Assembly: GCF_000518865.1 (NCBI RefSeq)
Contig: NZ_JAEK01000028.1
Span: 1 to 59,981, forward strand
Source: Bacillus sp. J37
Lineage (GTDB): Bacteria; Bacillota; Bacilli; Bacillales; Bacillaceae
DNA: 59,981 nt
Direction of reading: 5' to 3'
A program made the translations under genes and the position numbers. A model generated the notes under the pieces. It was not told where the DNA came from, did no database searches, and saw only the letters and a list, made by a program, of their open reading frames with translations. Every line of letters starts with the position of its first letter. Position 1 is the first letter of the stretch. Shown here one piece after another: positions 33,185 to 54,274 of this stretch.

Positions 33185-34360
33185 ATGCAGAATCAATCAA
33201 GGTCTCCACTTTATTTGCAAATTCAAGATTATTTTAAAAATGAAATCGTAACGAAACGATTATCACCAAATGAAAAAATTCCTACTGAACGAGAAATAAT
33301 GGAAATGTTTAATGTGAGTAGGATAACGGTTGCAAATGCCTTAACAGAATTAGCAAAAGAGGGATGGATATTCCGTGTACCTGGCAAGGGGAGCTTTGTT
33401 AGGGAGGATGTGCATCAATTAACAAATGTTACTGTACAAAATCAGGATCTGACCCATACTTCAACTGAATTGGTGATGGAAGGGCAAAAGAAACGTAAAA
33501 TGATCGGACTGATTATGCCTGGTATTAATGACTTTTTTGCTATCCGATTGATCAATGGAATTAATAAAGTTTTAGAAGATTCAGAGTATTATCTGGTCAT
33601 CTTACTTAGTCAAAATTCAAAGGAAAAAGAGCGTGAAGCCATTAGAGAGCTAATGAGCATGCATGCTGAAGGATTACTTATCTTCCCGGTTGATGCTGAA
33701 ATATATAATGATGATATTTTGGAATTAAAGGTTCGTCATTTTCCTTTTGTACTAATTGATCGGTATTTACCCGGCGTTGAAACGAATTATGTGAATTCTG
33801 ATAATGTTCTTGGTGCAAAGCTTGCAGTTTCTCATCTTTGGGATTTGGGACATCGGAATATTGCGATATGTTCCGATTCAGCACTACCGACAGTTTCGGT
33901 TGAATTGAGAATAAAAGGCTATATGGATGCGTTGAAAGAGAAGGGAGCCATGATCGATCCTTCCCTCATTCTCTCGGATTTTAGAGTGGATTACGATAAA
34001 TTTGAGCCGGACCATCCTTTATATCAACTTATGGAAAAGAGATCTGCTACTGCGTTTATTACACTTAATGCAAAATTAGGCTTGTATATTTCAAGCTTAT
34101 CAAAAAGACTGGGACTTAAAGTGCCTGAGGATATTTCAATTCTTACCTATGACGATCCTTCATCTGGGTACGATGACTTTGGAGTGTACACTCATATATC
34201 GCAATCTGAATACATGATGGGTCAAGAAGCAGCAAAAATATTACTTCAATTGCTTACGAATCAACAAAATCATACGATTAACCCGGGGTATCAAAAAGTA
34301 AATCTTACTCCTAAACTAATTATAAAAGAAACGACTGGGGTTTTAACAAAACTTAAGTAA
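33185..34360 (+). CDS. GntR-LacI fusion regulator (AraR type)
   Basis: A 391-residue regulator. The GntR winged helix (1-75: SPLYLQIQDYFKNEIVTKRL, REIMEMFNVSRITVANALTE) is joined to a LacI/periplasmic-binding-protein sugar sensor (about 105-385: KMIGLIMPGINDFFAIRLIN, NVLGAKLAVSHLWDLGHRNI, ILTYDDPSSGYDDFGV). This is the architecture of AraR, the arabinose repressor of Bacillus. The start is ATG 33185 with AAGGGG upstream; the open frame to 33101 covers the promoter. It lies at the head of the glycan locus and probably controls it, with L-arabinose or a related sugar as likely effector. The effector is inference. Confidence 0.85.
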   Translation: MQNQSRSPLYLQIQDYFKNEIVTKRLSPNEKIPTEREIMEMFNVSRITVANALTELAKEGWIFRVPGKGSFVREDVHQLTNVTVQNQDLTHTSTELVMEGQKKRKMIGLIMPGINDFFAIRLINGINKVLEDSEYYLVILLSQNSKEKEREAIRELMSMHAEGLLIFPVDAEIYNDDILELKVRHFPFVLIDRYLPGVETNYVNSDNVLGAKLAVSHLWDLGHRNIAICSDSALPTVSVELRIKGYMDALKEKGAMIDPSLILSDFRVDYDKFEPDHPLYQLMEKRSATAFITLNAKLGLYISSLSKRLGLKVPEDISILTYDDPSSGYDDFGVYTHISQSEYMMGQEAAKILLQLLTNQQNHTINPGYQKVNLTPKLIIKETTGVLTKLK

Positions 34361-34413
34361 GAGATAAGGTTAAAGAGCCTGGATCATTAAATGATCCAGG
34401 CTTTATTTATGTT
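34340..34413 (+). repeat. Regulator 3' end and terminator, copy 1 of a duplicated segment
   Basis: The last codons of the regulator, the spacer (TTTAACAAAACTTAAG...GTTAAAG) and the terminator plus TTTATTTATGTTA recur in altered form at 51703-51798. This is the intact copy. Confidence 0.6.
34376..34410 (+). terminator. Intrinsic terminator of the regulator
   Basis: A perfect 13-bp stem, AGCCTGGATCATT / AATGATCCAGGCT, with one base between the arms, so the apex opens. TTTATTTAT follows. Confidence 0.82.
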
Positions 34414-34675
34414 AATGATCTATAAAATACATGAATGTTGTTCAGTCTTAAAAAGTATAAAAATTTTAAAAAGCATTATTGACATAAATGAATTATATAA
34501 TATAATTAAATATATCAAATGTTACTTTCTACATATTTACCCATATCTATTCCTTCTAAGAGTGACACTACTTTCTATTTAAATAACATAATAACTTCCT
34601 AACTCATCAATTTTTCTAAAGGCTCTTTTCTAAAAGATTGTTGTTTTTAATAAGTACTTGAAAAAACTAAATAGG

Positions 34676-34794
34676 GTTGATTTGAAATGATATGCGAGAC
34701 TCCTGTGGGACAGGTGAGACCCCGCAGACGCCAAGCGTTGAGGAGGCTCACCGCCCACCCCATGGAAAGCGAGCAGCCTGGAGCTCAAATCAAC
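34676..34794. repeat. Structured intergenic repeat, family B, copy 1
   Basis: Outer arms GTTGATTTGA (34676-34685) and TCAAATCAAC (34785-34794) are exact complements. The inside shares GTGGGACAGGTGAGACCCCG...GAGGAGGCTCACCGCC with 41670-41790. GGTGAG pairs with CTCACC. The 990-base gap 34361-35353 otherwise holds AT-rich sequence, family A copy 2 and a CcpA-like site. Confidence 0.7.
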
Positions 34795-35054
34795 AACCTC
34801 TACACTTATTACATAGCAACAATGTTTGCGAAAACAGCCTTTCTAAAAGAATTACATATTTGCCATAATCGATATATGTAAATGATCGGTGTTCCATATA
34901 GTGGCTATGCACAGACAGTTTCATCGTTCAATCAAAAGATAGAGAGAATTAAGAACTCTATTCACCAATCTTAACACTTTTACAAAGCACCAAATTATTC
35001 CTTTTTTAAGACTGCTTTCGCAAAGATTGTTGCTTTGAATAATATTTTTAATCC

Positions 35055-35194
35055 ATAGTGGAATGGAGCGGAATACACTCGACTCTTACGGGAAGTGAGG
35101 AAAGGCTGAGACCCCACAGGAGAAGCCGAGGGAGGCTCAGCTTCCTCCCCGGCGCATGGAGTGTCTGGAGCGCAATAAAACGAACTAATTTTCA
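35055..35194. repeat. Structured intergenic repeat, family A, copy 2
   Basis: Same ends and same stems as 25005-25144, with GCTGAG/CTCAGC replacing GCTAAG/CTTAGC. It lies just upstream of the CcpA-like site of the glycan locus. Confidence 0.75.
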
Positions 35195-35220
35195 TATGTA
35201 ACTGCGATTAAAATCAGAAA

Positions 35221-35234
35221 AGTAAGCGCTAACA
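35221..35234 (+). promoter_or_regulatory. Putative CcpA-binding site (CRE) of the glycan locus
   Basis: AGTAAGCGCTAACA matches the CRE consensus TGWNANCGNTNWCA at every constrained position but the first. It lies 120 bases upstream of the GxGYxYP gene. It suggests that the locus is repressed by preferred sugars. Confidence 0.65.
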
Positions 35235-35254
35235 TTAATTGATCTACGACATTT

Positions 35255-35291
35255 TAGGAGGTGATAGTTGAGTAGATACATAGTTAAATAG
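35255..35291 (+). other. Perfect Shine-Dalgarno with only a 7-codon frame
   Basis: TAGGAGGTGAT (35255-35265) is a near-full complement of the 16S rRNA tail. Yet the only frame it serves is TTG AGT AGA TAC ATA GTT AAA TAG (35268-35291, seven codons). The next real start is 60 bases further on and has its own RBS. It may be a leader peptide or a ribosome-docking site. Confidence 0.35.
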
Positions 35292-35353
35292 TTTACATTT
35301 GATGAACTTTTAGAAGTCTGAATCAAAGAAAAACGATTAGCTAGGGAGGAATA

Positions 35354-37414
35354 ATGGTGGTTCGAAAACTAATTCAAATCTGTTTAGCACTGGCCCTAAT
35401 TTTATCAGTAACATCGGTTAGTGCGAAAAATCCTGATTCCAATAAGGTGAAAAACGGAAATATTACTTGGCCGAAAAAACAGGCGCTTCCAACTTTTCCG
35501 AAAGCAAAGCATCTTGATGTCGTTGATTTGAGAGATCGTTCAGGTGATGAAAAACTTCTTCTTACAACACTCCAAGGAAATGTTAATCGAGAAAAAAACT
35601 CGATCTATCTGATTGAATCTAATTATGAAGAAGGAAATTATACGTGGTTAAACGACATCAAGGTTCCTTATTCTATGATTGACGATCCATGGGACTTAGT
35701 GAAAAAATACAAAAAATACGTATCTGGCATGATTATTTATGACCCTGAAGTAGAGGATACCATAAACGTAGCTACTACTATGGCAGGGTTGGAAAATGCA
35801 GTTGTAGTAAGTCCTGAGCTTGCTGAGAAGCTTAAACAGGCACCATACAGTTTTAAGGTGATTGAAGATTTACGAGGCAAATTTGAAAACGGACTTGAGG
35901 CTTATAAATGGCAATTTGAACATCTTTGGCCAAAAACAACTCACCGGATGCTGGTTGGGTTAAACCCTAACAAAAGTGTAGAGTTACCAAAAGATAATTG
36001 GAATGATTTTGATACGATTCTAGAAGAGAAGGAACAGATTAGAGACAGCTCTAATCAAGATGTTTATGATCTGGATTTGTCAAGCTATCTCGGTGAAGGA
36101 GATGTTTACTTACGTTTTCAAGATGCCTTCACAAATGATGGTTGGGGTCCGGCTGTTCATGAAGTAACAGTTAAAGCTGACGGTGAAATCATTGCTCAGT
36201 TCATACCTGGAACTAGTGAGGAAGAACCTTATTTATATGATCGTAACAATTCAAATTCTGATGATCGTTTTGGTGGTCACCGTTGGGCAGATAACGGTAA
36301 TTACTTCGTCTATAAGTTTACACCACCTGCCGGTACAGAGGATTTACAAGTTTCCATTGATATGTGGAATCAATTTAAAGTTTCTGCATCAAATGTGAAA
36401 CCTTTATCTTCGGAAGTGAAAGAACCATATGGTTTTTTAAGAGATTATGCAATCGCAAACAAAGCAATGGTTTTTTGGTTAGAAACGAATGTACCTGAAG
36501 AAAAAGAATTATTTGAACAAATATTGTCTGATGTTGAACCAAACACCCCATATTTAGGTTGGTTCAGCAATGATGTTGCAGGTGAATTCAGTTCAACGGA
36601 ACTAGCTTCAGAGCATAGCGTATATGTTCTTGCGGCAGACTGGTTCAATAACCTGACCGTCTTTTCCGGTACGAAAGGAAAAATGAAAAAGCAGGCTGCA
36701 CTTCCTGCACCAAAACTAGAAAATAAAATCTATGTCACGTTTACATTAGGTGAAGGAGACAATCTTCAATATAATCAGCATAAATTACGACAGCTTTGGG
36801 ATGATGAAGCAAGGGGATCTGTTCCAATTAACTGGTCTACGACGCCATTACTCTATGATGCAGCACCGGCAATGCTTAGTTTCTATCAACAATCCGCTAC
36901 AGAGAATGATTTATTGGTTGTCGGACCATCAGGGGCCGGTTATATTTATCCAACACCTTGGCCGGATGATACGTTTCATCTCTTTGCCAAGCAAACAAAC
37001 AAATATATGAAATTAACAGGAATGGATATTATCTATGCACTTAACCGTGTAAATGAACAAAATGTTCCGTTAACTGAATCTGAAGTGAATGATTATGTCA
37101 AATATATCAATCCTAGAGGAATTCTTTATAGCTGGGAAAATTATACCGGAACATCCATTTTAAATGGAAAACTTCCTATATCTATTTTAAGAGGTGTCGG
37201 AAGTGTATCTGAAACGAAAGAAGCTATTGCAGAGGCAGCGGCAAATTGGGATGGAGAATCACCACTATTTTTATCGATGGGGATGTTATCCTGGTCTGTC
37301 ACACCATCTCATATTCAGGAAATTGTGAACTCTTTAGGACCTGAATATGAAGTTGTTCGAGGAGATCAATACTTTGACTTAATACGCGAAGCAAACGGAT
37401 TACCGAAAAAATAA
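35354..37414 (+). CDS. Secreted GxGYxYP-family protein (putative glycosidase)
   Basis: A 686-residue exported protein. A signal peptide (LIQICLALALILSVTSVSA, cleavage near residue 24) is followed by the GxGYxYP N-domain. A beta-sandwich-like insert comes next (about 220-345, DVYLRFQDAFTNDGWGPAVH, then WADNGNYFVYKF). The C-domain bears the name-giving motif GAGYIYPTPWP near residue 525. Members cluster with polysaccharide-utilisation genes in gut and soil bacteria and are presumed glycoside hydrolases, with no settled activity. GGGAGGAATA precedes the ATG. It is the first enzyme gene of the locus and is followed by a hairpin and the 726-residue protein gene. Confidence 0.8.
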   Translation: MVVRKLIQICLALALILSVTSVSAKNPDSNKVKNGNITWPKKQALPTFPKAKHLDVVDLRDRSGDEKLLLTTLQGNVNREKNSIYLIESNYEEGNYTWLNDIKVPYSMIDDPWDLVKKYKKYVSGMIIYDPEVEDTINVATTMAGLENAVVVSPELAEKLKQAPYSFKVIEDLRGKFENGLEAYKWQFEHLWPKTTHRMLVGLNPNKSVELPKDNWNDFDTILEEKEQIRDSSNQDVYDLDLSSYLGEGDVYLRFQDAFTNDGWGPAVHEVTVKADGEIIAQFIPGTSEEEPYLYDRNNSNSDDRFGGHRWADNGNYFVYKFTPPAGTEDLQVSIDMWNQFKVSASNVKPLSSEVKEPYGFLRDYAIANKAMVFWLETNVPEEKELFEQILSDVEPNTPYLGWFSNDVAGEFSSTELASEHSVYVLAADWFNNLTVFSGTKGKMKKQAALPAPKLENKIYVTFTLGEGDNLQYNQHKLRQLWDDEARGSVPINWSTTPLLYDAAPAMLSFYQQSATENDLLVVGPSGAGYIYPTPWPDDTFHLFAKQTNKYMKLTGMDIIYALNRVNEQNVPLTESEVNDYVKYINPRGILYSWENYTGTSILNGKLPISILRGVGSVSETKEAIAEAAANWDGESPLFLSMGMLSWSVTPSHIQEIVNSLGPEYEVVRGDQYFDLIREANGLPKK

Positions 37415-37441
37415 TCGAGATTTCTGCATGAAATGAAAGGG

Positions 37442-37471
37442 TAGAACCTCTATAAATTTTAGAGGTTCTAT
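37442..37471 (+). other. Intercistronic hairpin without T-run
   Basis: TAGAACCTCT pairs with AGAGGTTCTA around an AT-rich loop. ATCCAAATC follows, not T, so it more likely protects or trims mRNA than terminates. Confidence 0.55.
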
Positions 37472-37512
37472 CCAAATCAAATAATAGGGAAAAAAGGGGA
37501 GGCTTCAAAAAA

Positions 37513-39693
37513 ATGGACATGAGGGATCGCAGAGAGGAAAGGACAGGTTTCCAAGAGTCAGCTCCTTACAAGGCTACATATGATTTACAATCCGATTTTG
37601 TCATGGTATACGGCATAGATGATTCAATGCCAAGGCGAATTCAAGAATGGAAGAACAAGGGGTATGTTGTTCATTTAATGACAGGGATAGCATGGGGAGA
37701 ATATCAAGATTATTTATATGGAAAATTCGATGGTCGCGAACATTGGGATGAAGCTCAAAAAAATAAACAGGGATCACATATCCTTCATGGAAAGGATATT
37801 CCTTATATGGTCCCTACGGTTGCTTTTACACAGTATTTGACAAGTCGTATTAAACTTGCGGTAGATGCTGGAGTTGAAGCTATTCATTTAGAGGAACCGG
37901 AGTTTTGGGTTGATGGAGGATATTCAGAAAGCTTTAAAAGAGAATGGCAAATTTATTACAAAGAACCATGGCAGCCTCCACATGAATCGGTTGATGCCCA
38001 ATACCGTGCTTCACATCTAAAAGCATATTTATATAAACGCAGTTTAGATCGGCTTTGCAGTGAGTTAAAAGAATACGCCCTTGTAAAATACAATCGATTT
38101 TTACGATTTTACGTTCCCACTCATAGCTTAATAAATTATACACAATGGCGAATTGTAAGTCCGGAATCGATGCTTCTTGACCTGCCGGCTATTGATGGGT
38201 ACATTGCGCAAATTTGGACTGGTACATCACGTACCCAAAATGTTTATGATGGTGTAAGGAAGGAACGAACTTTTGAAACCGCTTTATTAGAGTATGGGAT
38301 GATGCAGGAGTTAGTAAGCGGAACAGATCGGAACATGTGGTTTTTACATGATCCCATTGAAGATAATCCAAGATACACCTGGTCTGATTACAAAAACAAT
38401 TACCTTAAAACGGTTGTTGCTTCACTATTACATCCTGAAATATCTCAATATGAAATATCTCCATGGCCAAAGCGGATTTTTGATGGAAAGTATCCGAACG
38501 AAGAAGGGACAGGTAAGGAGGCAATTCCTGAAGATTATGCGACAACACTGTTAACGATTATGCACACACTCGGGGATATGAATCAAGAGGATATTCAAGA
38601 ATACGGAATGGCAGAAAAAATCGGGGTTCTTGTTTCAGATTCGATGATGTATCAACGTAAAAATTTCCATACCGATGATAAGGATTCATCCCACCGCTAT
38701 GATGGCACGGAAACAAATACTGTGACAAATGAGGATGACATTGACCTTTTAAATTTCTCTCATTTTTATGGATTAGCTCTACCGCTAATAAAGAGAGGAA
38801 TTATGGTTAGACCTGTTCAATTTGATAATGTTCGACGGTTTTCAAATTACCTGAATGATTATCGCCTCCTAATCTTAAGCTATGAATTTCAAAAACCGGA
38901 GTACCCTGATTTACATATGGCGCTTGCTAAATGGGTTAGAGAAGGTGGAGTTTTAATTTACGTAGGGGATGATCAAGATCCATATCACTATGTAAGAGAA
39001 TGGTGGAATACCGGAAAGATCAAATATGATGTTCCTAGAGAACATTTGTTTGAAAGCTTAGGATTATCAAATGAAAAGGAACAAAGCATATATGAAATTG
39101 ATAAAGGGGTACTGGGATTTTTGAACATTTCCCCAGAGGATAGTGCTAATGACAGAAAAAGCGCAGACATGTATAGAGACTTAATTACGACATGCTTGAA
39201 CACGAACAATCACCAAGTTGAGTTGGAAGAGAAGAATTATTTTATGGTTAAAAGAGGACCTTATCGAATCGCGGCAGTCATGGATGAATCAATTTCTGCT
39301 GCACCGTTGAAATTGAATGGACATTTCGTTAATTTATTTGATCCAGCTTTACCAGTCATCACTCAACTTCAACTAAATCCTGAAGATATGACTCTATTAT
39401 ACGATTTAGACGATGACATGCCTGAAACAGAGATGAAGGTCATTGCAGCCTCATCAAGGATAGAAGATGTCATACATCATGATTCCGGATTTGAAATGGT
39501 TGTAAAAGGTCCGGAAAAAATAAAGGCAGTAGCCCGTATATTTTGTCCTAAAAAGCCGGTTCAAGCAAATCTTATCATTGGTCATAATAGCACATCTATT
39601 GAATGGGATTGGCATGAAGAATCGAAAACTATTTTTGTCCAATATTCTCATAGTTCAACAGATTCAACGAAAATTTCAGTGAAATGGTCGTGA
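37513..39693 (+). CDS. Unrecognised 726-residue protein, glycosidase-like
   Basis: A cytoplasmic protein with no signal peptide. Residues about 1-370 look like a TIM barrel: RIKLAVDAGVEAIHLEEPEF ending in W (about 112-132, acidic cluster on a strand end) and WFLHDPIEDNPRYTW (about 276-290) carry candidate catalytic acids. Residues about 430-520 resemble the GATase-like domain of beta-galactosidases (RLLILSYEF...WVREGGVLIYVGDD). The C-terminal 150 residues look all-beta. The plan recalls GH42-like enzymes, but the motifs do not match a family I can name. It lies between the GxGYxYP gene and the importer genes. Confidence 0.65.
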   Translation: MDMRDRREERTGFQESAPYKATYDLQSDFVMVYGIDDSMPRRIQEWKNKGYVVHLMTGIAWGEYQDYLYGKFDGREHWDEAQKNKQGSHILHGKDIPYMVPTVAFTQYLTSRIKLAVDAGVEAIHLEEPEFWVDGGYSESFKREWQIYYKEPWQPPHESVDAQYRASHLKAYLYKRSLDRLCSELKEYALVKYNRFLRFYVPTHSLINYTQWRIVSPESMLLDLPAIDGYIAQIWTGTSRTQNVYDGVRKERTFETALLEYGMMQELVSGTDRNMWFLHDPIEDNPRYTWSDYKNNYLKTVVASLLHPEISQYEISPWPKRIFDGKYPNEEGTGKEAIPEDYATTLLTIMHTLGDMNQEDIQEYGMAEKIGVLVSDSMMYQRKNFHTDDKDSSHRYDGTETNTVTNEDDIDLLNFSHFYGLALPLIKRGIMVRPVQFDNVRRFSNYLNDYRLLILSYEFQKPEYPDLHMALAKWVREGGVLIYVGDDQDPYHYVREWWNTGKIKYDVPREHLFESLGLSNEKEQSIYEIDKGVLGFLNISPEDSANDRKSADMYRDLITTCLNTNNHQVELEEKNYFMVKRGPYRIAAVMDESISAAPLKLNGHFVNLFDPALPVITQLQLNPEDMTLLYDLDDDMPETEMKVIAASSRIEDVIHHDSGFEMVVKGPEKIKAVARIFCPKKPVQANLIIGHNSTSIEWDWHEESKTIFVQYSHSSTDSTKISVKWS

Positions 39694-39735
39694 ACTTTTT
39701 AGGTAAATGTCGGTTTACAAGGGGGAGTGGATGAA

Positions 39736-40701
39736 ATGAAAGGTGACTCAGAAGTGAAGATAGCTTCCCACCAAGAATTGATCATAAAGACAAATAAAAA
39801 AAGTATTTGGTTTAGAATTTGGCAGCACAGGGTGTTTTATTTATTCTTACTTCCGGGAATTATTTGGTTTTTTATCTTTGCGTATATTCCGATGTATGGC
39901 ATTACAATTGCATTTAAAGACTTTAACTTTGTGAAAGGAATTCTGGGGAGTCCATGGGCAGGATTAAAATACTTTGAACAGTTTTTCAATTATTATCAAG
40001 CAGGAGAAATTATAAGGAACACTTTAGTCATTAGTTTAATGAAGTTGTTAATTGGGTTTCCAATGCCGATTATTTTAGCATTAATGCTGAATGAAGTAAG
40101 AGTAACGAAATTTAAAAGAACCGTACAAACCATTTCCTATCTGCCACATTTTATTTCTTGGGTAGTTGTTGTTACGCTCTTGCAAAGAATGTTAACCCCA
40201 TATGGCGGCCCGGTTAATGAGCTCCTGTCAACATTAGGCTTTGATAAGGTGCAGTTCTTAGGAAACATCAATTATTTTTACCAAGTCATTATTGCTTCAG
40301 ATATTTGGAAAGGTGTCGGATGGGGAGCCATCATTTATTTAGCGGCTATTTCAGGTGTGGACCCGCAACTCTATGAAGCAGCAAAAATTGATGGTGCCAA
40401 TCGCTTTAGGCAAATTTGGCATGTGACTCTACCATCTATTAGAGGAGTCATGGTTCTATTATTTATTCTTGCTTGTGGTGGCATCATGTCTGCAGGTTAT
40501 GAGCAGTTATTACTACTAAATACGCCAGCAACAGCGAAGATCGGGACTGTTTTAGATGTATATGTCATTCAAGCCGGATTAGAGCAGGGACGATTTAGTT
40601 ATGCAACAGCAGTTGGATTGTTCCAAGGAATCATTGGGTTAATCCTCATCATTACGGCTAACCAGGTGAGTAAAAAAGTGAATGATACATCTTTATGGTA
40701 A
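39736..40701 (+). CDS. lplB: Sugar ABC transporter permease, LplB-like
   Basis: A 321-residue membrane permease with six segments. The long N-terminal stretch YLFLLPGIIWFFIFAYIPMYG is typical of the LplB/YtcP group. The EAA loop is ISGVDPQLYEAAKIDGANRF (about 208-227), which contacts an MsmX-type ATPase; no ATPase gene lies in the locus, so a shared one elsewhere is needed. ATG 39736 with GGGGGAG 8 bases upstream is preferred to GTG 39727. Imports an oligosaccharide together with the next two components. The symbol is by analogy. Confidence 0.83.
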   Translation: MKGDSEVKIASHQELIIKTNKKSIWFRIWQHRVFYLFLLPGIIWFFIFAYIPMYGITIAFKDFNFVKGILGSPWAGLKYFEQFFNYYQAGEIIRNTLVISLMKLLIGFPMPIILALMLNEVRVTKFKRTVQTISYLPHFISWVVVVTLLQRMLTPYGGPVNELLSTLGFDKVQFLGNINYFYQVIIASDIWKGVGWGAIIYLAAISGVDPQLYEAAKIDGANRFRQIWHVTLPSIRGVMVLLFILACGGIMSAGYEQLLLLNTPATAKIGTVLDVYVIQAGLEQGRFSYATAVGLFQGIIGLILIITANQVSKKVNDTSLW

Positions 40702-40716
40702 GGAGGGAAGTTACAA

Positions 40717-41613: not shown

Positions 41614-41669
41614 CCCTTCTTGCTATTACGCGATTTCTAAAACATTGTTGTCATGACCAAACCTGATTT

Positions 41670-41790
41670 GGTTGATTGTAGTGGAGAGTGCGGGAGCAGT
41701 GGGACAGGTGAGACCCCGCAAGCGTCACGCGCTGAGGAGGCTCACCGCCAACCCCGCGGAAAGCGAGCATCCTGGGGCTGCAATCAACCA
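41670..41790. repeat. Structured intergenic repeat, family B, copy 2, inside the importer operon
   Basis: Outer arms GGTTGATTGTAG (41670-41681) and CTGCAATCAACC (41779-41790) pair with a single wobble. Inner GGTGAG/CTCACC and the GACAGGTGAGACCCCGC block match 34676-34794. The arm sequence differs from copy 1 on both sides in a compensating way. It separates the two permease genes from the binding-protein gene. Confidence 0.72.
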
Positions 41791-41885
41791 TGCGCAATTC
41801 CTATTAAAAAGCAACAAAGTTTGCGAAAATTAGCGTAATTTTAAGAAGTTTATCAAATAAAAACAAATGTACAAGGGGGATTAAC

Positions 41886-43547: not shown

Positions 43548-43573
43548 ACGAACATATATTAGTAATTAGTAAA

Positions 43574-43616
43574 CATCTAAGAAAGGGAGAGTCTTAATCT
43601 CTCCCTTTCTTAGATG
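43574..43616 (+). other. 18-bp perfect hairpin after the binding-protein gene
   Basis: An 18-base arm (43574-43591, starting CATCTAAGAAAGG) is the exact complement of 43599-43616, with a 7-base loop. ACCAAATTAG follows, so there is no T-run and it is not a normal terminator. Such structures stabilise binding-protein transcripts relative to downstream genes. Confidence 0.75.
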
Positions 43617-43655
43617 ACCAAATTAGTAAACAAACACCAAAGGAGAGGTAAAATA

Positions 43656-45692: not shown

Positions 45693-45828
45693 GGTTTTTA
45701 TAAATATTCATAGAATGAAATGAACCTTCTTCTCAGATTCACCTTCTATGTGGTTGGATACGGATATCCATATCTGCATTCAGCCACACTGTATTAAATA
45801 AATATTAATTAGGGAGTTATAAGCATAC

Positions 45829-48800
45829 ATGAATGATAAAACAGCTGACATGAAAAAGGTGCTTCAAGTTTTAGATGAAGAAGATAAGATTCATTTCTTT
45901 TCCTCATTTGAAACAATAGAAGAACAGCCGCATTGGGAAAATTCAGTAGAGTTAAAGGGGAATGGCACGAGATTATCTTCAGGTGTCTATTCTAATCAAT
46001 ACTTAGAAATCGGTATGATGAAAACGGAAGTAGATTCAGGACCTCGCAATAGTTATACAGGTAAAACAAATGTGGGATGGTCAGGTCAAAAAGCACTTAG
46101 TTACTCGGGCCATCATGTCTCGAGCAACAGAGCTTATTCCTTTCATAAAATTTTTGAAGTGGATATAGATGTTACTCCAGCGACTTCTTTCTCTTATTTG
46201 ATCCATCCGGAGTTTGCTGACGAAGAAGAAAGAGATTACTCAAGTACGTATGTAAGTCTTGATCTTGCTTTTAGTGATGGAACCTATTTAAGTGAACTTG
46301 AAGCAGTCGACCAACACGGAGTTCGTTTGACTCCCATCGCACAAGGTGATTCAAAAACACTATATCCGAATCAATGGAATTATAAAACATCTAAAATCGG
46401 TCTTGTAGCAAGTGGGAAAAAAATTCTCCGCATATTAGTTGCATATGACCAACCAAAAGGGCCAGGTATTTTTAAAGGAAGTATAGATGATATTCGTATC
46501 GCTGAGAAGACTGGTGAAAAAGTCTCTAAAAGCCCTATCGATTATGTGAGTATTTTAAGAGGCACAAATTCTAATTCTACTTTCTCAAGAGGGAATAATT
46601 TTCCTGCTGTAGCCTTACCGCATGGATTTAACTTTTGGACTCCTGTTACAGACGCCGGTTCTACAAGCTGGCTATACTCATATCAACAACATAATAACCG
46701 TGACAATTTACCAGAATTACAAGCATTTTCACTAAGTCATCAAACAAGTCCATGGATGGGAGATCGACAAACATTTCAGGTGATGCCTTCTGGGGCGGGT
46801 AATCCGTGTGTGAATCGAAAACAAAGAGCACTCCCGTTTCAACATAAAAATGAAGTGGCAAAACCACATTATTATAAAGTATTATTTGAAAATGGAATCA
46901 AGACGGAATTTACTCCTACAAATCGTGCAGCAATGTTTAGGTTTACGTTTGTGAATGATGTATCAAGTCTCATTTTCGACAATGTGAATGATCTTGGAGG
47001 GTTAACCATCCTACCTGAAGAGAACATCATTACAGGCTATTCTGATGTGAAAAGCAACTTATCAGTCGGTGCAACAAGAATGTTTATTTATGCAACTTTT
47101 GATAAAAAGATGATTAAAAGCGGCAAGCTCACCGGCGAAAACAGAGATCATGTTGCAGGTTTTATTTCCTTTAATACAGAGGGATCAGATAAATCCGTTA
47201 CGATGACTATAGCTACATCCTTAATAAGTGTTGAACAAGCAAAAAGAAATTTACATCAGGAAATTAAACAGGAAGATACATTCGAGAGTCTAAAAAACAA
47301 AGCGAAACATGCATGGGAAGAAAAGCTGAACATAATCGAAGTGGAAGGTGCGAGTGAAGTAGAATTAACAACACTTTATTCAAATCTGTATCGATTGTTT
47401 TTGTATCCAAATATTAGCTATGAAAATACAGGTACTAAAAACGAACCGAAATTTATGTATGCAAGTCCTTTTTCAAAACCAAAAGGCAAAGATACACCTG
47501 TAAAAACAGGAGCATATTTAGTAGAAGGAAAACCTTATATCAATAACGGGTTTTGGGACACGTATCGAACAGCTTGGCCTGCATACGTTTTATTTAGTCC
47601 AACACATGCCGGAGAAATGATCGATGGATTTATTCAGCAATATAAAGACGGAGGATGGATATCAAGATGGTCATCACCTGGCTATGCTAATTTAATGGTC
47701 GGAACAAGTTCAGATGTTGCCTTTGCAGATGCCTATTTAAAAGGAGTAACCAACTTTGATGTGAACGCTTTTTATGAATCTGCCATTAAAAACGCAGCTG
47801 TCGCAAGTGAAGATGAAAGTGTCGGAAGAAAAGGGTTAACAACATCCATTTTCGACCGATTTACTAACAATTCCGTTGAAGAAGGCTTGTCATGGGCTAT
47901 GGATGGCTTTATCAATGACTTTGCTATTGCAAATCTCGCTAGTGTGCTGGCATTACAAACAGATCCAAAAGATCCAATGTACTCCCAATATTGTACAGAT
48001 GCCATTTATTATAAAGAACGAGCACAAAATTTTGTCGAAATGTTCCACCCTGATGTAAAGTTTTTTATGGGGAAAAAACCTTCCGGAGACTGGCGAACTA
48101 CTCCTGATTCCTTCCATTCTGAAGAGTGGGGTGGAGATTACACAGAAACAAATGCATGGAATATGGCTTTTCATGTACCACATGATGGTCAAGGTTTAGC
48201 AAATCTATATGGTGGCCGAAAAGAATTAGCACAAAAGCTTGATGCTTTATTCTCCATTCCTGAAACAGGCTTATATAAGGGGCATTATTCACAAATTATC
48301 CATGAGATGCGTGAGGCGCGGGATGTGAGGATGGGGATGTATGCACATAGTAATCAGCCTTCCCATCATATTTTGTATATGTATCATTATGTCGGGCAGC
48401 CAGCAAAAGCACAGGAAAAAATCCGGGAAGTATTATCGAGATTGTATATAGGAAGCGAAATCGGCCAAGGGTATCCTGGTGATGAAGATAATGGTGAAAT
48501 GTCTGCATGGTACTTATTTAGTGCAGCCGGTTTTTATCCATTACAAATGGGTGCACCAAGTTATACAATCGGAGCACCGTATTTTAAAAAGATGATCATT
48601 CATCTTGAAAATGGACATAAAATAACGATTCTTGCACCTAATGTCAGTAATGAAAATAAATATATTCAAAGCCTTAAAGTAAATGGAATTCCATATCATA
48701 AGGTAACAATCGATCATGAAACACTTACAAATGGAGCAACATTAGAGTTTGAAATGGGAAATTGTCCATCTGATTGGGGAACGGGTATTCATGATTTACC

Positions 48801-49551
48801 TGCTTCTCTAACACCCATTTCAACAAATGGAACCTCTATCTCATCAACGCATTTAAACGATCTAACAGACGGTATGAAAGGCAAAACATATCATTCTGAC
48901 CATGGTCCAGCACTTAATGCCTTTGATAATAATTCGCTTACTCAATTGAAAATAAATCATAATAAAGCCTGGATACAATACGAATTTGAAGATGGAAAGA
49001 AGGAAGCTCTACTGTATACCCTGACATCCGGGCTGGAAGAAAATCAAGACCCTAAAAGCTGGGTGTTACTTGGATCAAATGATGGGGAAGATTGGGAAGT
49101 TCTTGATCGAAAAGAACAGGTACATTTTAAATGGAGGAGATACACAAAAGCTTTTACAATCAAAAATCCAGGTGCTTTTTCACACTATCGATTTGAACTT
49201 CTTGATAATGGAGGGTCAAATATAACCTCTCTTTCTCAAATTGAATTGCTCGGGTTTGATCATTTAGTAGAAAATAGTAAGTATGTCAAATCGTTAGCGG
49301 AAAAAATAAAAAATAGCGAGATTCAAAACCAAGTAAAATATCATTTATCCCGTTCATACGAATACTTACATCAAAACAAAGTAGATCTATCTGTTATAGA
49401 ATTAGAAGCCTGTATCATCGTAATCAATCAATTAAATGCTGGAAAAGACTCTGGAGAGAAAGAACAATTGATCGCCAATATACATGCGCTGATGTTTGCT
49501 TTAAAAAAAGTTATTCACATTAAAAACACATGCAGTGTAGGCAGGAGATAA
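45829..49551 (+). CDS. GH92 alpha-mannosidase with C-terminal F5/8-type domain
   Basis: A 1240-residue multidomain enzyme. An N-terminal beta domain of about 230 residues is followed by GH92: RGNNFPAVALPHGFNFWTPV (about 255-274), NGFWDTYRTAWP near 573, and the Ca/catalytic motif GDEDNGEMSAWY near 884. Residues about 1030-1145 resemble a discoidin/CBM32 domain (SWVLLGSNDGEDWEVLDRKE), and a helical tail of 90 residues ends the protein. GH92 enzymes are Ca-dependent exo-alpha-mannosidases. Most bacterial ones are exported; this one has no signal peptide. The RBS (GGGAG) is 13 bases from ATG 45829, unusually far. Confidence 0.85.
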   Translation: MNDKTADMKKVLQVLDEEDKIHFFSSFETIEEQPHWENSVELKGNGTRLSSGVYSNQYLEIGMMKTEVDSGPRNSYTGKTNVGWSGQKALSYSGHHVSSNRAYSFHKIFEVDIDVTPATSFSYLIHPEFADEEERDYSSTYVSLDLAFSDGTYLSELEAVDQHGVRLTPIAQGDSKTLYPNQWNYKTSKIGLVASGKKILRILVAYDQPKGPGIFKGSIDDIRIAEKTGEKVSKSPIDYVSILRGTNSNSTFSRGNNFPAVALPHGFNFWTPVTDAGSTSWLYSYQQHNNRDNLPELQAFSLSHQTSPWMGDRQTFQVMPSGAGNPCVNRKQRALPFQHKNEVAKPHYYKVLFENGIKTEFTPTNRAAMFRFTFVNDVSSLIFDNVNDLGGLTILPEENIITGYSDVKSNLSVGATRMFIYATFDKKMIKSGKLTGENRDHVAGFISFNTEGSDKSVTMTIATSLISVEQAKRNLHQEIKQEDTFESLKNKAKHAWEEKLNIIEVEGASEVELTTLYSNLYRLFLYPNISYENTGTKNEPKFMYASPFSKPKGKDTPVKTGAYLVEGKPYINNGFWDTYRTAWPAYVLFSPTHAGEMIDGFIQQYKDGGWISRWSSPGYANLMVGTSSDVAFADAYLKGVTNFDVNAFYESAIKNAAVASEDESVGRKGLTTSIFDRFTNNSVEEGLSWAMDGFINDFAIANLASVLALQTDPKDPMYSQYCTDAIYYKERAQNFVEMFHPDVKFFMGKKPSGDWRTTPDSFHSEEWGGDYTETNAWNMAFHVPHDGQGLANLYGGRKELAQKLDALFSIPETGLYKGHYSQIIHEMREARDVRMGMYAHSNQPSHHILYMYHYVGQPAKAQEKIREVLSRLYIGSEIGQGYPGDEDNGEMSAWYLFSAAGFYPLQMGAPSYTIGAPYFKKMIIHLENGHKITILAPNVSNENKYIQSLKVNGIPYHKVTIDHETLTNGATLEFEMGNCPSDWGTGIHDLPASLTPISTNGTSISSTHLNDLTDGMKGKTYHSDHGPALNAFDNNSLTQLKINHNKAWIQYEFEDGKKEALLYTLTSGLEENQDPKSWVLLGSNDGEDWEVLDRKEQVHFKWRRYTKAFTIKNPGAFSHYRFELLDNGGSNITSLSQIELLGFDHLVENSKYVKSLAEKIKNSEIQNQVKYHLSRSYEYLHQNKVDLSVIELEACIIVINQLNAGKDSGEKEQLIANIHALMFALKKVIHIKNTCSVGRR

Positions 49552-49562: not shown

Positions 49563-49597
49563 ACGACTCAACTGTTAACGATTGGGTCGTCTTTTTA
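49563..49597 (+). terminator. Intrinsic terminator after GH92
   Basis: ACGACTCAA pairs with TTGGGTCGT (one wobble), followed by CTTTTTA. It would end the long transcript before GH127. Confidence 0.75.
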
Positions 49598-49668: not shown

Positions 49669-51615
49669 TTGCTATTAAGAGGAAAAATAAGGGAGATGAA
49701 TGGCAGGATGGGTATAAAAACGAAAAGATTGCTAGAGCCACTTCCATTTACAAATGTCACAATTGAAGATCGTTTTTGGGCACCGAAGTTAAAAGTAAAT
49801 CGTGAACAAACGATTCCCTACCAATATGAACAATGTAAAACGACCGGAAGAATCGATGCTTTTCGATTAAACTGGAAGCCGGGAATTGAACCAAAGCCTC
49901 ATATATTTTGGGATTCTGATGTAGCAAAATGGATCGAAGCAGCAAGTTATAGTTTAGCAACAAATCCTGATTCTAATCTTGATTCATTAGTAGATCGTGT
50001 CATTCAAGTCATTGCAGCTGCCCAACAGCCAGATGGATATCTAAATGTTTATTTTACCGTCGTTGAGTCACAAAATCGTTGGAAGGATTTACGTGATGCA
50101 CATGAATTATATTGTGCTGGCCATTTAATCGAAGCAGGAATTGCCCACTTTAAAGCGACAAAAAAGAGAACTCTTTACGATGTGATTTGCCGTTATGCTG
50201 ATTATATTGATACCGTATTTGGGCCGGAAGAAAAGAAATTAAAAGGCTATCCAGGTCATCAAGAAATTGAACTTGCGCTATATAAACTTTACAAAGTATC
50301 CGGTAATGAAAAATATTTACGCTTAAGTAAATATTTTATTGATGAAAGAGGAAAGCAGCCACATTATTTTGATCTTGAAAAAGAACAAATGCCAGGATTT
50401 TTTGAAGAATTTATGAATTCACACCTCAATATTCATGAATACAATCAGTCACACAAGTTAGTCAGAGAACAAAGAGAAGTTGTCGGACATGCTGTAAGAG
50501 CTTTATACATGTATTCAGCCATGACAGATTTGGCAGGAGAGCTTGGAGATGAGGAGCTATTAGAAGCATGTGAGCAATTATGGAATACGTTACACAACAA
50601 AAATATGTATATTACAGGAGGCATAGGTTCAACAAGAAATAACGAAGGCTTTACTTATGACTATGACTTGCCGAATGAAACCGCGTATGCGGAAACATGT
50701 GCTTCTGTTGCTGTAGTGTTTTGGAATCATCGACTTTTACAGCTTGAATGTGATGGGAAATATGCCGATGCGCTCGAACGGGCACTGTATAATGGGGTAA
50801 TAAGCGGGATTTCTCAAGATGGTAAAAAATTCTTATATGAAAATCCACTTGAGAGTAGAGGAAATTCACATCGGCAGAAATGGTTCGGCTGTGCCTGTTG
50901 TCCTCCGAATATCTCAAGACTCTTTGCTTCAATAGGTGAGTATATATACTCACAAGGTGATCATGAGATCGTCACTCATTTATATATTCAAGGTTCTGGG
51001 ACATTTCATATAAATGATCAAGTTATACGATTACGACAGGAAACCGATTACCCATGGGATGGGCATGTTAACATTCAACTACAACTAGATAAGCCAGACA
51101 CGTTTAGATTAAAATTAAGAATTCCAGAATGGTGTCAACATGCATCATTGACCATTAATGGTGACCAATTCGACATGCAAGGATCTCTTCAAAAAGGCTA
51201 TGTGACATTAGAAAAAGAATGGTCAGATCACGACATCGTCGAGCTGGAATTACAGATGTCAGCACAACGATATTATTCAAATCCACACGTTAGGCAAAAT
51301 GTAAATCATGTTGCAATTCAACGGGGTCCAATCGTTTATTGCTTAGAATCAGCAGATAATATTGAAGACGTTCAAGCAATCATACTACCGAAAAATGCAG
51401 TACTTTATGAAATGTACGATGCAAATATGCTCGATGGCATCATTAAAATAATGGCAGATGCGTTTGTTTTAATAGATAGCGAATGGGAGAATAAACTATA
51501 CAAACCGAATAGACCTAGTGTTTCACCCCATCAAATGACCGCAGTGCCTTATTTTTTATGGGATAATCGCGAACCAGGTCAAATGGTTGTTTGGATGAAG
51601 GAAGGTATTAATTAG
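49669..51615 (+). CDS. GH127 beta-L-arabinofuranosidase
   Basis: A 648-residue (alpha/alpha)6-barrel enzyme. Numbered from the TTG start, NETAYAETCASVA carries E342, and C361 and GCACCPPN (C410, C411) complete the Cys3-Glu zinc site with a cysteine nucleophile known from HypBA1 of Bifidobacterium longum. It removes beta-L-arabinofuranose from short oligosaccharides. No signal peptide, so it acts on imported sugar. The start is uncertain: TTG 49669 has GAGGGA 10 bases upstream, ATG 49696 and ATG 49708 are alternatives, and family similarity begins only at VTIEDRFW. A palindromic operator precedes it. Confidence 0.87.
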   Translation: MLLRGKIREMNGRMGIKTKRLLEPLPFTNVTIEDRFWAPKLKVNREQTIPYQYEQCKTTGRIDAFRLNWKPGIEPKPHIFWDSDVAKWIEAASYSLATNPDSNLDSLVDRVIQVIAAAQQPDGYLNVYFTVVESQNRWKDLRDAHELYCAGHLIEAGIAHFKATKKRTLYDVICRYADYIDTVFGPEEKKLKGYPGHQEIELALYKLYKVSGNEKYLRLSKYFIDERGKQPHYFDLEKEQMPGFFEEFMNSHLNIHEYNQSHKLVREQREVVGHAVRALYMYSAMTDLAGELGDEELLEACEQLWNTLHNKNMYITGGIGSTRNNEGFTYDYDLPNETAYAETCASVAVVFWNHRLLQLECDGKYADALERALYNGVISGISQDGKKFLYENPLESRGNSHRQKWFGCACCPPNISRLFASIGEYIYSQGDHEIVTHLYIQGSGTFHINDQVIRLRQETDYPWDGHVNIQLQLDKPDTFRLKLRIPEWCQHASLTINGDQFDMQGSLQKGYVTLEKEWSDHDIVELELQMSAQRYYSNPHVRQNVNHVAIQRGPIVYCLESADNIEDVQAIILPKNAVLYEMYDANMLDGIIKIMADAFVLIDSEWENKLYKPNRPSVSPHQMTAVPYFLWDNREPGQMVVWMKEGIN

Positions 51616-51702
51616 GTATACTTTACGTGCAGGATCAATTAAGGACTCAACTTTAAAATAAATAAACCTTATTCCTGAATGAATCGTAAAATTAACAAGT
51701 GA

Positions 51703-51798
51703 TTTAACAAAACCTTAAGGAAGAGTTAAAGTAAATGTACTTAAGTTCATACAGAAAAAGAGTCTGGTTCATTTAATGACCCAGGCTTTATTTATGTT
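51703..51798 (+). repeat. Decayed copy of the regulator 3' end and terminator
   Basis: TTTAACAAAACCTTAAGGAAGAGTTAAAG (51703 on) matches the end of the regulator gene at 34341 on. A terminator-like hairpin and TTTATTTATGTTA follow, as after the regulator. The reading frame is lost. It lies in the 646-base gap between GH127 and GH43. Confidence 0.5.
51761..51795 (+). terminator. Terminator-like hairpin after GH127
   Basis: AGTCTGGTTCATT pairs with AATGACCCAGGCT with one wobble and one mismatch. TTTATTTAT follows. It is probably the terminator of GH127, inherited from the duplicated segment. Confidence 0.6.
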
Positions 51799-51998
51799 AT
51801 GTATTTAAATAAACAAAGTTCTTTAAAAGTGGCTTTGCTAGATAAATTATTTTATAACGAAACTTGTCATTACGATGGATATCTTAAAGCATAAAAAAAC
51901 ACATTTTTTCTAAATATTCTCTACTTATCTTAAAAGATTCTATATTTCATTCAAAGGAATTTATAGTTTTTTCTAAATATTTTCCATTTTTATTGAAT

Positions 51999-52012: not shown

Positions 52013-52089
52013 AATTCTAAAGTGTTCAAGTCTTTTTAATAAAAATTAAGTAAACAGTCAGCTGCAGGGAATAATTGTTCTTCGAAGCA

Positions 52090-52215
52090 AGGCTGTATTC
52101 ATTTGCTTCTTTCAATACGCTGACTTTCAGGAGGTGTTGCCAAAGATTAAAGATAGATTGCTCAATTAGTAGATAAGGGACTCAGGAGTTGGCAGCGGAC
52201 TGAATACAACCGTAG
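52090..52215 (+). other. Structured untranslated leader of the GH43 gene
   Basis: GAAGCAA (52084-52090 region) can pair with TTGCTTC about 14 bases on. TGTATTCA near 52092 is the exact complement of TGAATACA near 52199. A strong AGGAGGTG at about 52130 serves no long frame. No riboswitch class is recognised. Folding is by eye only. Confidence 0.35.
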
Positions 52216-52261
52216 CTAAATGGATGATGTTTTTAAATATTGACGAAGGGGATGTATAATA

Positions 52262-54274
52262 GTGTATAAAAAATTGTTAGCCCTCACTGCGGCTTCTTCC
52301 ATGCTACTAACCTTTGTGCCAAGTAATGGGTCGATTGCTTCGGCGCTGCAAAATGAAAGTCATGTTGAAAAGCTGGCAAGTGCAAATTCAGCGGAACAAA
52401 TTATGAAAGCTGTGTTGGGTGATGTTCCTGAAGTCATTGGAGCCCCAAATATGGAACTAGAAGTTCAAGTGAAATTAGATGAACTGGCAAAAGGAAAATA
52501 CACTTCTTTACATGCATCTTTTCATATTCCTGATAGCCTAACGGTTACTGGGGTAGAGTTCAATTCGAAGAATATTATGGGGGGAGCCAGTTCTTATACG
52601 TATTCAAAGGACACTTTAAATCTTCAAGTTAAGGGTGGGAACGTAAGTATTGCGCATAAAGGTTCAGATTTATTCGCGACAATCAAACTAAAAGTAAAAG
52701 ATTTTGTGACATCCGACCGGACCGATGTTATCCGGGCCAATTCTATTACAGCCGAAAGTAGAAATGGCAAGGATATTGTCTATTCCGTAGATGAAGCAGT
52801 AGCCAACATTGGGTTGAAACAATTGGATACAGGTGCGATTGCAAAAATTCCTGGTTATGCCAATTCGCTGATGAGCCATAAATTTGGTGCTGATCCACAT
52901 GCGATGGTCTATGATGGTCGAGTTTATATTTATATGACCAACGATGAATTCGAATATGATGCAAACGGAAATCTCATAGATAATACTTATAGCAAAATCA
53001 ACACAGTTAATGTCATCTCTTCTGATGATATGATTAACTGGACGGACCACGGTGCGATTCCAGTTGCAGGTCCTAATGGTGCGGCAAAGTGGGCAACCCA
53101 ATCGTGGGCAGTATCCACTGAACATAAAGAGATTGATGGAAAAGATAAATTCTTCCTTTACTTTTCAAATAACGCATCAGGCATTGGTGTTCTTACATCC
53201 GATAGCCCAATTGGACCTTGGACAGATCCGCTCGGCAAACCGTTAATCGGCCGGAATGATCCTGCAGCTCAGGGTGTTGCCTGGCTCTTTGATCCGGCAG
53301 GCTTTGTCGATGACGATGGTCAAGCATATTTGTACTATGGTGGAGGAGTACCAGGCAACCCGCCTACACAGGAGCAAGCCGAACACCCGGCAACTGCAAG
53401 AGTCATTAAACTAAGTGATGACATGATTCATACCGTAGGGGAACCACAAGTCATAGATGCTCCATTCTTGTTTGAAGCATCAGGTATGCACAAGAAAAAT
53501 GGTAAATACTATTATTCTTATAGTACGAACTTCTCTGGTGTGCGGCAGGAAGATGATCCGGGGACAGGTGAAATTGCGTATATGACCAGTGATTCTCCAA
53601 TGGGACCGTGGACGTATGAGGGTACAGCACTTAGGAATCCATGGGTTTTCTTCGGTGTCGGAGGAAATAACCATCAAGATTTCTTTGAGTTCAAAGGTCA
53701 AACGTATATCACATACCATGCCCAAACAGTAGCTAAAGCCATGAACAAAGCCAAGGGTTATCGTTCTCCTCATATTAATAAGGTCGAATATGATGAGAAT
53801 GGCAAGATGAAAGATGTCAAAGCAGATATGAAAGGTGTATCACAGGTGGCCAACCTTGACCCGTATAAGCGGAACGAGGCTGAAACAATCGGATGGAATG
53901 CAGGTATTAAAACTGAGAAATCCCAAGCACCTGGGGGTATGGTTGAAAGCATTAACCTTAATGTAACCGATATCAATAATGGAGATTGGGTTGCGGTCTC
54001 CCAAGCAGATTTCGGTAAAAATGGTGCTGCATCCTTTGAAGCAAATATAGCCTCTACTGTCGGCGGTGAAATTGAAATTCGCGTAGACAGCCCAGTTGGT
54101 GAAGTGATCGGAACGCTCGACGTTAACCCGACTGGCGGAGAACAGGAATGGCAATTGATGAAGACCAATGTCAAGAATGTTAGCGGCACACGAAATATCT
54201 TCTTCATCTTTAAAGGAGAAGGAGAGAACAACTTATTTAATATGGATTATTGGACATTCACGGAGAAAGAATAA
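52262..54274 (+). CDS. Secreted GH43 arabinanase/xylosidase-type enzyme with CBM6
   Basis: A 670-residue exported enzyme. A signal peptide (to about residue 28) is followed by a cohesin-like beta domain (about 45-185). The GH43 five-blade propeller (about 195-530) has the three acids: D211 (GADPHAMVYDG), D344 (WLFDPAGFVDDDG) and E405 (FLFEASGMH). CBM6 closes the protein (about 540-670, RNEAETIGWN to NMDYWTF). This plan resembles arabinoxylan arabinofuranohydrolases such as XynD. The start is GTG behind AAGGGGATG. Sampled lines reach 48-58% G+C, much higher than GH127, suggesting a separate origin. Confidence 0.84.
   Translation: MYKKLLALTAASSMLLTFVPSNGSIASALQNESHVEKLASANSAEQIMKAVLGDVPEVIGAPNMELEVQVKLDELAKGKYTSLHASFHIPDSLTVTGVEFNSKNIMGGASSYTYSKDTLNLQVKGGNVSIAHKGSDLFATIKLKVKDFVTSDRTDVIRANSITAESRNGKDIVYSVDEAVANIGLKQLDTGAIAKIPGYANSLMSHKFGADPHAMVYDGRVYIYMTNDEFEYDANGNLIDNTYSKINTVNVISSDDMINWTDHGAIPVAGPNGAAKWATQSWAVSTEHKEIDGKDKFFLYFSNNASGIGVLTSDSPIGPWTDPLGKPLIGRNDPAAQGVAWLFDPAGFVDDDGQAYLYYGGGVPGNPPTQEQAEHPATARVIKLSDDMIHTVGEPQVIDAPFLFEASGMHKKNGKYYYSYSTNFSGVRQEDDPGTGEIAYMTSDSPMGPWTYEGTALRNPWVFFGVGGNNHQDFFEFKGQTYITYHAQTVAKAMNKAKGYRSPHINKVEYDENGKMKDVKADMKGVSQVANLDPYKRNEAETIGWNAGIKTEKSQAPGGMVESINLNVTDINNGDWVAVSQADFGKNGAASFEANIASTVGGEIEIRVDSPVGEVIGTLDVNPTGGEQEWQLMKTNVKNVSGTRNIFFIFKGEGENNLFNMDYWTFTEKE

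Follow-up and report, generated by a model that had tools for sequence, protein, structure and literature searches.

A conserved operon of Bacillus sp. J37 with a candidate glycosidase family and a probable role in importing and digesting an alpha-mannose-rich glycan

We have analysed a stretch of 59,981 nucleotides of contig NZ_JAEK01000028.1 of Bacillus sp. J37 (hereafter the window), in which the region 33101-54274 contains ten open reading frames (ORFs), all on the plus strand. An earlier reading made from the letters alone (the sequence-only reading) had described here one 21-kb glycan-utilisation locus with a GxGYxYP protein, members of glycoside hydrolase (GH) families 92, 127 and 43, a GtaA-like protein and an importer, and the Pfam families agree with that gene content. 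The conserved unit, however, is not the 21 kb but the part from 33185 to 49551, made up of a regulator (REG), the GxGYxYP protein, a protein of 726 residues (P726), two permeases, a lipoprotein solute-binding protein (SBP), GtaA and GH92. While REG to GH92 is conserved, GH127 appears to be a local insertion and GH43 is found at this place only in the two nearest relatives; free variation of neighbours between related genomes was seen for these two genes and not for the others.

REG (33185-34360; like all features given here, on the plus strand) combines a GntR-type helix-turn-helix with a LacI-type sugar-binding domain (Pfam GntR 2.1e-19, Peripla_BP_3 1.2e-17); its ORF opens at 33101 and 33185 is an in-frame ATG inside it. 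A terminator-like hairpin of 14 pairs lies 3' of the gene (34374-34404; -21.9 kcal/mol, 0 of 200 shuffles as good), followed upstream of the operon by a promoter-like TTGACA-16-TATAAT at 34479-34506 matching the consensus at 12 of 12 positions, in a region where promoter-like sites overall show no excess (67 found, 72 expected from shuffles). The GxGYxYP protein (35354-37414; PF14323 8.2e-66, motif GAGYIYP) has a signal peptide and is a putative extracellular glycoside hydrolase. It is followed by P726 (37513-39693), with no signal peptide and no family match, for which a barrel, a GATase-like and a beta domain are predicted. Permeases A (39727-40701) and B (40717-41613), both matching BPD_transp_1, belong to an ATP-binding cassette (ABC) importer, for which the label "Lpl-type" is taken over from the sequence-only reading, and the SBP (41886-43547; SBP_bac_1 1.2e-14) has the lipobox LAAC. 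The last two genes code for a GtaA/DUF4965-type six-hairpin protein (43656-45692, ORF open from 43614; PF16335 8.5e-141, PF17168, PF16334), a putative cytoplasmic glycosidase, and for GH92 (45829-49551; PF07971 2.3e-139), an alpha-1,2-mannosidase to judge by its residues, both without a signal peptide. GH92 alone exceeds its cut-off among the NCBIfam matches listed for the proteins of the locus, and neither the Rfam nor the tRNA scan gave a hit in the window.

The N-termini, read by eye, agree with what had been stated earlier about localisation: GxGYxYP and GH43 have signal peptides and the SBP a lipobox, and P726, GtaA, GH92 and GH127 have none. We also applied a simple hydrophobicity test to those relatives whose match spanned 85% of the reference with an identity of at least 45%. 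It found a hydrophobic stretch at the N-terminus of 22 of 28 GxGYxYP proteins and 8 of 8 SBPs; such a stretch was absent from P726 (75 of 76), GtaA (37 of 37), GH92 (5 of 5), GH38 (48 of 48) and GH125 (3 of 3). The split between secreted and cytoplasmic enzymes is conserved among relatives, and the scheme of trimming outside, import and digestion inside that had been put forward for this locus is supported by the secreted enzyme, the lipoprotein-dependent importer and the cytoplasmic glycosidases.

Six of 80 genomes of the source family had a relative of P726, all six within the source genus (6 of 21). So did 15 of 398 genomes sampled across the class and, in a second family of that class (presumably Paenibacillaceae), 132 of 394; a collection scan gave 21 loci. 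From part of the positive genomes, a few of which gave two loci, we have compared 75 P726 loci of Bacilli and 13 of Clostridia. Their ORFs were labelled by BLAST against the window proteins and GH38, GH125 and phosphatase-family references with a threshold of 100 aligned residues at E 1e-8, and the labels are loose for the importer: at least 45% identity was reached by 55 of 58 REG and all GtaA labels, and by 33 of 52 for permease A, 35 of 60 for permease B and 9 of 36 for the SBP. In three of the Bacilli loci and four of the Clostridia loci no P726 ORF was called, despite the P726 match used for fetching them, and three Bacilli loci contain only large homologues at 28-29% identity.

An alpha-mannosidase is present in 56 of the 75 Bacilli loci, as GH38 in 50 (among them one just 26% alike), as GH92 in 5 and as GH125 in 4. 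REG was labelled in 58, two permeases in 52, a window-like SBP in 36, GtaA in 45 and GxGYxYP in 42, and 39 loci combine P726 and a mannosidase with at least one of GtaA and GxGYxYP and with two permeases. Representatives of GH38 and GH125 from these loci were confirmed by Pfam. GH38 lies at most 5 kb from P726 in 8 of 9 non-Metabacillus genomes, chosen after their loci had been seen, where copy number and genome size would predict 0.07 (the inputs of this and of the GH127 and GH76 distance tests were transcribed by hand from search output). A search for GH38 in the window genome found none, suggesting that GH92 takes its place in the Metabacillus group. The Pfam scan of neighbours covered 53 ORFs (49 of the 80 listed neighbours, 3 from locus L007 and 1 from L082), with 25 of 75 families listed; phosphoglucomutase/phosphomannomutase and ROK genes, each seen in 2 of the 53, lend weak support to an alpha-mannose-rich substrate. 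For Clostridia, 8 of 10 scanned neighbours gave a Pfam match, six of them to transport or redox families, one transglutaminase-like and one to GH2, the latter in L015 adjoining a sugar transporter of the major facilitator superfamily; a weak GH42 match and pectate-lyase-like and GDSL lipase-like neighbours were also found.

The catalytic domain of GH92 scores 465.8 bits against a PF07971 cut-off of 24.6, and a C-terminal F5/8-like domain falls just below its own (F5_F8_type_C, 26.6 against 28.2 bits). The protein matches the N. novalis enzyme (7nsn) with 1642 bits, and in an alignment with 2wvx, which we take to be Bt3990, residues W309, E773, H825-E826 and D887, mapped by hand, occupy the determinant positions of Bt3990 and NnGH92. 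The roles of these positions, an acid Glu, a base Asp and a Trp and His-Glu at the +1 subsite, are taken from PMC10167667, which, like the other papers cited here, was consulted in part. The window protein has the same catalytic and +1 subsite residues as the N. novalis enzyme and differs from it by the absence of a signal peptide and of an N-terminal CBM32, a module without which the N. novalis enzyme keeps about 50% of its activity (PMC10167667). To judge from these residues GH92 would remove terminal alpha-1,2-mannose, and the alpha-mannose removal ascribed to it earlier stands.

A second line of evidence on the substrate comes from GH76, the endo-alpha-1,6-mannanase family. In 4 of the 20 genomes tested, a gene of this family shares the strand of P726 and lies 5-6 kb from it, against 0.09 genomes expected to have one within 10 kb; in genome G063 the distance is 25 kb. 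The GH76 of L060 was confirmed by Pfam, and the four P726-adjacent GH76 ORFs have signal-like N-termini. The genome of Bacillus sp. J37 itself has a separate locus of alpha-mannan type on contig C26 (L159, L160), with two GH76 (one carrying CBM35/CBM6 and FIMAH), GH125, an SBP and a GntR/LacI regulator. Our best guess for the substrate is an alpha-mannan of the fungal type or a mannoprotein glycan; to decide between yeast mannan, galactomannan and N-glycan we rely on inference. Of the candidates named at the outset, the fungal mannan half gains from the GH76 linkage, and the presence of arabinofuranose in the same glycan is not supported.

P726 had no match in Pfam (up to E 10), NCBIfam or PHROGs, and against PDB sequences none by single sequence and two rows at E 0.44 by profile, none of them credible. 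Its AlphaFold2 model (predicted local distance difference test, pLDDT, 80.7; predicted template modelling score 0.82) is a beta/alpha barrel with GH42-type domain order and a predicted fold like GH42, GH35 and GH164 (clan GH-A). Foldseek matched it to GlmA (7.7e-16), GH42 and GH164, mostly beta-glycosidases among the matches listed. Eight acidic residues (E127, E128, E130, E251, E260, E266, D280 and D284) are invariant in 83 of 83 covering sequences; with the barrel strands assigned from their order and not by superposition, E127, E128 and E130 fall on putative strand 4 and D280 and D284 on putative strand 7, together with E283 (77 of 83). The GH164 beta-mannosidase Bs164, the GH42 beta-galactosidases and the exo-beta-D-glucosaminidase GlmA are alike in fold at about 8-13% identity, whereas a profile search gave no detectable sequence relation to GH164, GH42 or GlmA. 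P726 as a plain GH42 was rejected, there being no PF02449 match and a probability of 0.5% in the hhalign profile comparison. We consider P726 a candidate new glycosidase family, where new means absent from Pfam, NCBIfam, PHROGs and PDB sequences.

The domain is also found elsewhere in other arrangements. Proteins of 1565-1578 residues with signal-peptide-like N-termini contain a P726-like domain at 28-29% identity (L109:8493-13229, L110:5835-10535 and L111:9402-14099), the one in L110 together with CBM9 and Big_2. In an uncultured Metabacillus (L021:10001-12559), residues 1-531 of P726 are fused in frame to the C-terminal part of GtaA and the importer genes between the two parts are missing, apparently by a deletion.

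GxGYxYP has both N and C domains and the motif, and is a relative of BT2193 (3sgg, 106 bits), for which a triad of Glu272, Asp331 and Asp333 has been proposed; in the alignment, read by hand, Asp333 is kept, as is the neighbouring Asn334, Asp331 is replaced by Glu, and the column of Glu272 adjoins a gap, with another Glu some residues off. GxGYxYP genes of B. thetaiotaomicron occur in the alpha-mannan polysaccharide utilisation locus (PUL) 69 and beside GH92 (PMC4071793). GtaA has its complete domain set (GtaA_6_Hairpin, DUF5127 and DUF4964; PF16335, PF17168 and PF16334), no match among PDB sequences and a structure model too poor for a fold search (mean pLDDT 54.8). The same set is found in GtaA/DUF4965 of Phanerochaete and a Streptomyces homologue, the fungal protein being secreted, unlike that of the window (PMC9668830). 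According to the same source, the fungal GtaA is labelled by a glycosidase probe, and in the Streptomyces homologue glutaminase activity was not detected and beta-galactosidase activity was weak; glutaminase activity was rejected for the window protein on the evidence of this homologue (PMC9668830). The best PDB sequence match of REG is AraR (3tb6), with only 88 bits; a nearer relative, at 211 bits and 33% identity, is the regulator in the GH76/GH125 locus of the same genome. For the SBP the nearest solved relatives are weak (9pmy 51 bits, AlgQ1 42 bits), and two matches of MalK-type OB are found on other contigs of the genome.

In our view the operon at 33185-49551 probably serves to import and then digest a glycan rich in alpha-mannose, the likeliest being fungal mannan of the yeast type or a mannoprotein glycan. 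REG would repress the operon and the secreted GxGYxYP protein would cut the glycan outside the cell; the lipoprotein would capture the oligosaccharide, and the two permeases would import it, powered by an ATPase whose gene lies outside the operon in another part of the genome. Inside, GH92 would take off terminal alpha-1,2-mannose, as its residues indicate, and GtaA and P726 would take off further sugars, in the case of P726 probably a beta-linked or capping residue. GH127, an apparent insertion behind GH92 and ahead of the hairpin at the operon's end, would stay outside the pathway, as would GH43. More tentatively, and with somewhat less than even confidence, we propose that P726 founds a new GH family and that with the cytoplasmic GtaA and the secreted GxGYxYP it makes up a Gram-positive pathway, not described before, that acts on fungal mannoprotein glycans and in which P726 would remove a beta-mannose or another non-alpha-mannose residue inside the cell, before or after the action of GH92 or GH38.

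Several points weigh against the operon being an alpha-mannose system. The fetched stretch shows no alpha-mannosidase in 19 of 75 Bacilli loci, and in the 13 Clostridia loci, several of them on short contigs, neither a mannosidase nor any other labelled partner was seen, indicating that P726 also works outside a mannosidase setting. Nor do the importers form one family: a permease A with a likeness of 45% or more was present in just 33 loci, and such an SBP in just 9. Both the GH38 and the GH76 distance tests used genomes whose loci had mostly been seen beforehand; the four GH76-adjacent genomes belong to one genus and may represent a single event, and GH76 of the window genome lies on another contig than the operon. 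The scanned neighbours also include GH32 and GH4 (1 of 53 each), and in G063 the operon is flanked by two distant GH127-superfamily genes (L048:6249-8636 and L049:13596-15235), one 23% identical and the second (L049) split over two reading frames. Two GxGYxYP genes of B. thetaiotaomicron lie in PULs of unknown substrate (PMC4071793), and the data on GtaA point to a weak beta-galactosidase, an activity that yeast mannan would not need (PMC9668830).

In a rival reading the operon would be specialised on fungal galactomannan or phosphomannan, with GtaA and P726 removing galactofuranose, beta-mannose or phosphate-linked caps that block the alpha-mannosidases. We regard this as unlikely, though with a real chance of being right. 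The GtaA relative with weak beta-galactosidase activity (PMC9668830) and the fold neighbours of P726, mostly beta-glycosidases, speak for it, as does an endonuclease/phosphatase-family gene near P726 in 2 loci, but the phosphatase-type gene is rare. The fold of P726, whose matches include the GH164 beta-mannosidase, would also suit a high-mannose N-glycan system of the S. pneumoniae type, in which an endoglycosidase encoded elsewhere acts before import, GH92, GH38 and GH125 digest the product and P726 cleaves Man-beta-1,4-GlcNAc. S. pneumoniae has the same enzyme families and a dedicated importer (PMC5215778). We give this a slightly smaller chance: GH20 and GH85 are absent from the listed Pfam matches of neighbours (the genome was not searched for GH85 or GH18), the SBP compared with PDB chains (phmmer, E up to 0.001) gave no NgtS entry, and the family that adjoins the locus in four genomes is GH76.

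The pathway proposed by the sequence-only reading was one for a single glycan in which alpha-mannose occurs together with beta-L-arabinofuranose (that of plant hydroxyproline-rich glycoproteins, or mannan-arabinan), and GH127 and GH43 would be true members of it. It agrees with the presence of all genes on the same strand within 21 kb, with the place of GH127 ahead of the hairpin at which the operon of relatives ends and with the flanking GH127-superfamily pair of G063, but the comparison with relatives makes it very improbable. The sequence is contiguous in three loci of two species (L002, L003 and L046), where the homologue of 49535, at the end of GH92, joins that of 51723; the two nearest relatives found, in which GH127 is missing at this junction, are records named M. 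halosaccharovorans and M. niabensis. GH127 is also absent behind GH92 in two further loci of the Metabacillus group (L047 of G066 and L021 of G070). The segment 49536-51722 (about 2.2 kb) is therefore most simply an insert, which carries GH127 (49669-51615; DUF1680, PF07944 3.5e-110), a beta-L-arabinofuranosidase-type accessory protein, and a terminator-like hairpin between GH92 and GH127 (49563-49590; CTTTTT behind it, energy -10.8 kcal/mol, equalled by 2 of 200 shuffles) that is missing from the consensus-scan list. AAATGTA occurs at both edges of the insert, perhaps by chance. Behind GH127 lies another terminator-like hairpin (51759-51789; -14.5 kcal/mol, 1 of 200 shuffles as good), which resembles the one after REG and has homologues directly behind GH92 in L002 (-15.5 kcal/mol) and L046 (-14.7 kcal/mol), with 0 of 200 shuffles as good in each; the operon there appears to end at GH92, with GH43 beyond. 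The stretch 51656-51815, after GH127, is 78% identical to the one after REG in L002, a duplicated terminator-like region.

GH127-type genes have a match in 34 of 35 P726 genomes, but lie within 15 kb of P726 in only one (G063), against 0.63 expected, a count read off match rows of which some are weak. The relatives of the window GH127 at 61-66% identity (L133, L134 and L135) adjoin two permeases and an SBP that by its N-terminus is apparently a lipoprotein, thus having importers of their own, while a 73% identical relative (L132) adjoins none. Its absence from the junction, its chance-level frequency near P726 and these importers led us to reject GH127 as a member of the pathway; it looks like a strain-specific insertion. 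The protein itself has catalytic, middle and C domains in Pfam and matches 4qjy with 690 bits, and an assignment as aceric acid hydrolase was rejected (NF049879, 443.5 bits against a cut-off of 950). GH43 (52262-54274; PF04616 5e-34, with CBM6, PF03422, and a signal peptide) is a separate gene beyond the hairpin, shared at this place only with L045 and L046 among the loci searched. Its best PDB matches, 3c7g and 3c7e (617 bits), are labelled endo-1,4-beta-xylanase and are presumably B. subtilis XynD, an arabinoxylan arabinofuranohydrolase; we regard GH43 as a neighbouring xylan-type gene outside the pathway. Between its signal peptide and the GH43 domain, about 165-180 residues (52340-52880) have no Pfam match. 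With GH127 insert-like and at background frequency near P726, and GH43 xylan-type and beyond the hairpin, the placing of arabinofuranose in the same glycan is not supported. Xanthan utilisation, for which P. taichungensis I5 has a cluster with GH38 and GH92 likewise predicted to be intracellular (PMC12827396), is the least probable reading and can practically be dismissed, the listed Pfam matches of neighbours containing neither polysaccharide lyase family 8 nor GH9, and GH88 only as a secondary match of GH76 proteins.

The window also contains a GC-rich interspersed repeat of about 120 bp, with at least 34 matches in the genome. One copy lies at 34680-34800, with a similar block at 35060-35180, and another at 41699-41788 between permease B and the SBP, where L002 and L003 leave at most about 60 bp (aligned start).

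The closest described Gram-positive system that we found is the N-glycan locus of S. pneumoniae (GH92, GH38 and GH125, with the importer NgtS-P1-P2), which shares with the operon the alpha-mannosidase families, a lipoprotein-dependent importer with two permeases and the finishing of digestion in the cytoplasm (PMC5215778). It differs in that EndoD, GH20, GH29 and ROK are absent from the window operon, which adds P726, GtaA and GxGYxYP, absent in turn from Table 1 of that paper (PMC5215778). The operon also lacks the pair of GH38 and GH125, the window genome having no GH38 and its GH125 lying on contig C26. In B. thetaiotaomicron, PUL 69 and the BT2200 locus have GxGYxYP genes, with GH92 after BT2200 and a response of PUL 69 to alpha-mannan, but these are Bacteroides PULs, and P726 and the window importer are not mentioned in the consulted part of the paper (PMC4071793). 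The predicted GH76/GH125 cluster for alpha-1,6-mannan of P. taichungensis I5, with extracellular GH76, intracellular GH125, an importer and a regulator, is like contig C26, while P726, GtaA and GxGYxYP are not named in the part consulted (PMC12827396). Literature searches aimed at this set of genes listed no paper describing it.

Adjacency alone can mislead, as GH127 beside GH92, which looks like a strain-specific insertion, illustrates. The recurrence of P726, GtaA/DUF4965 and GxGYxYP beside alpha-mannosidases and importers narrows their possible substrates to a class that can be tested, and a single operon offers all three families for assay together.

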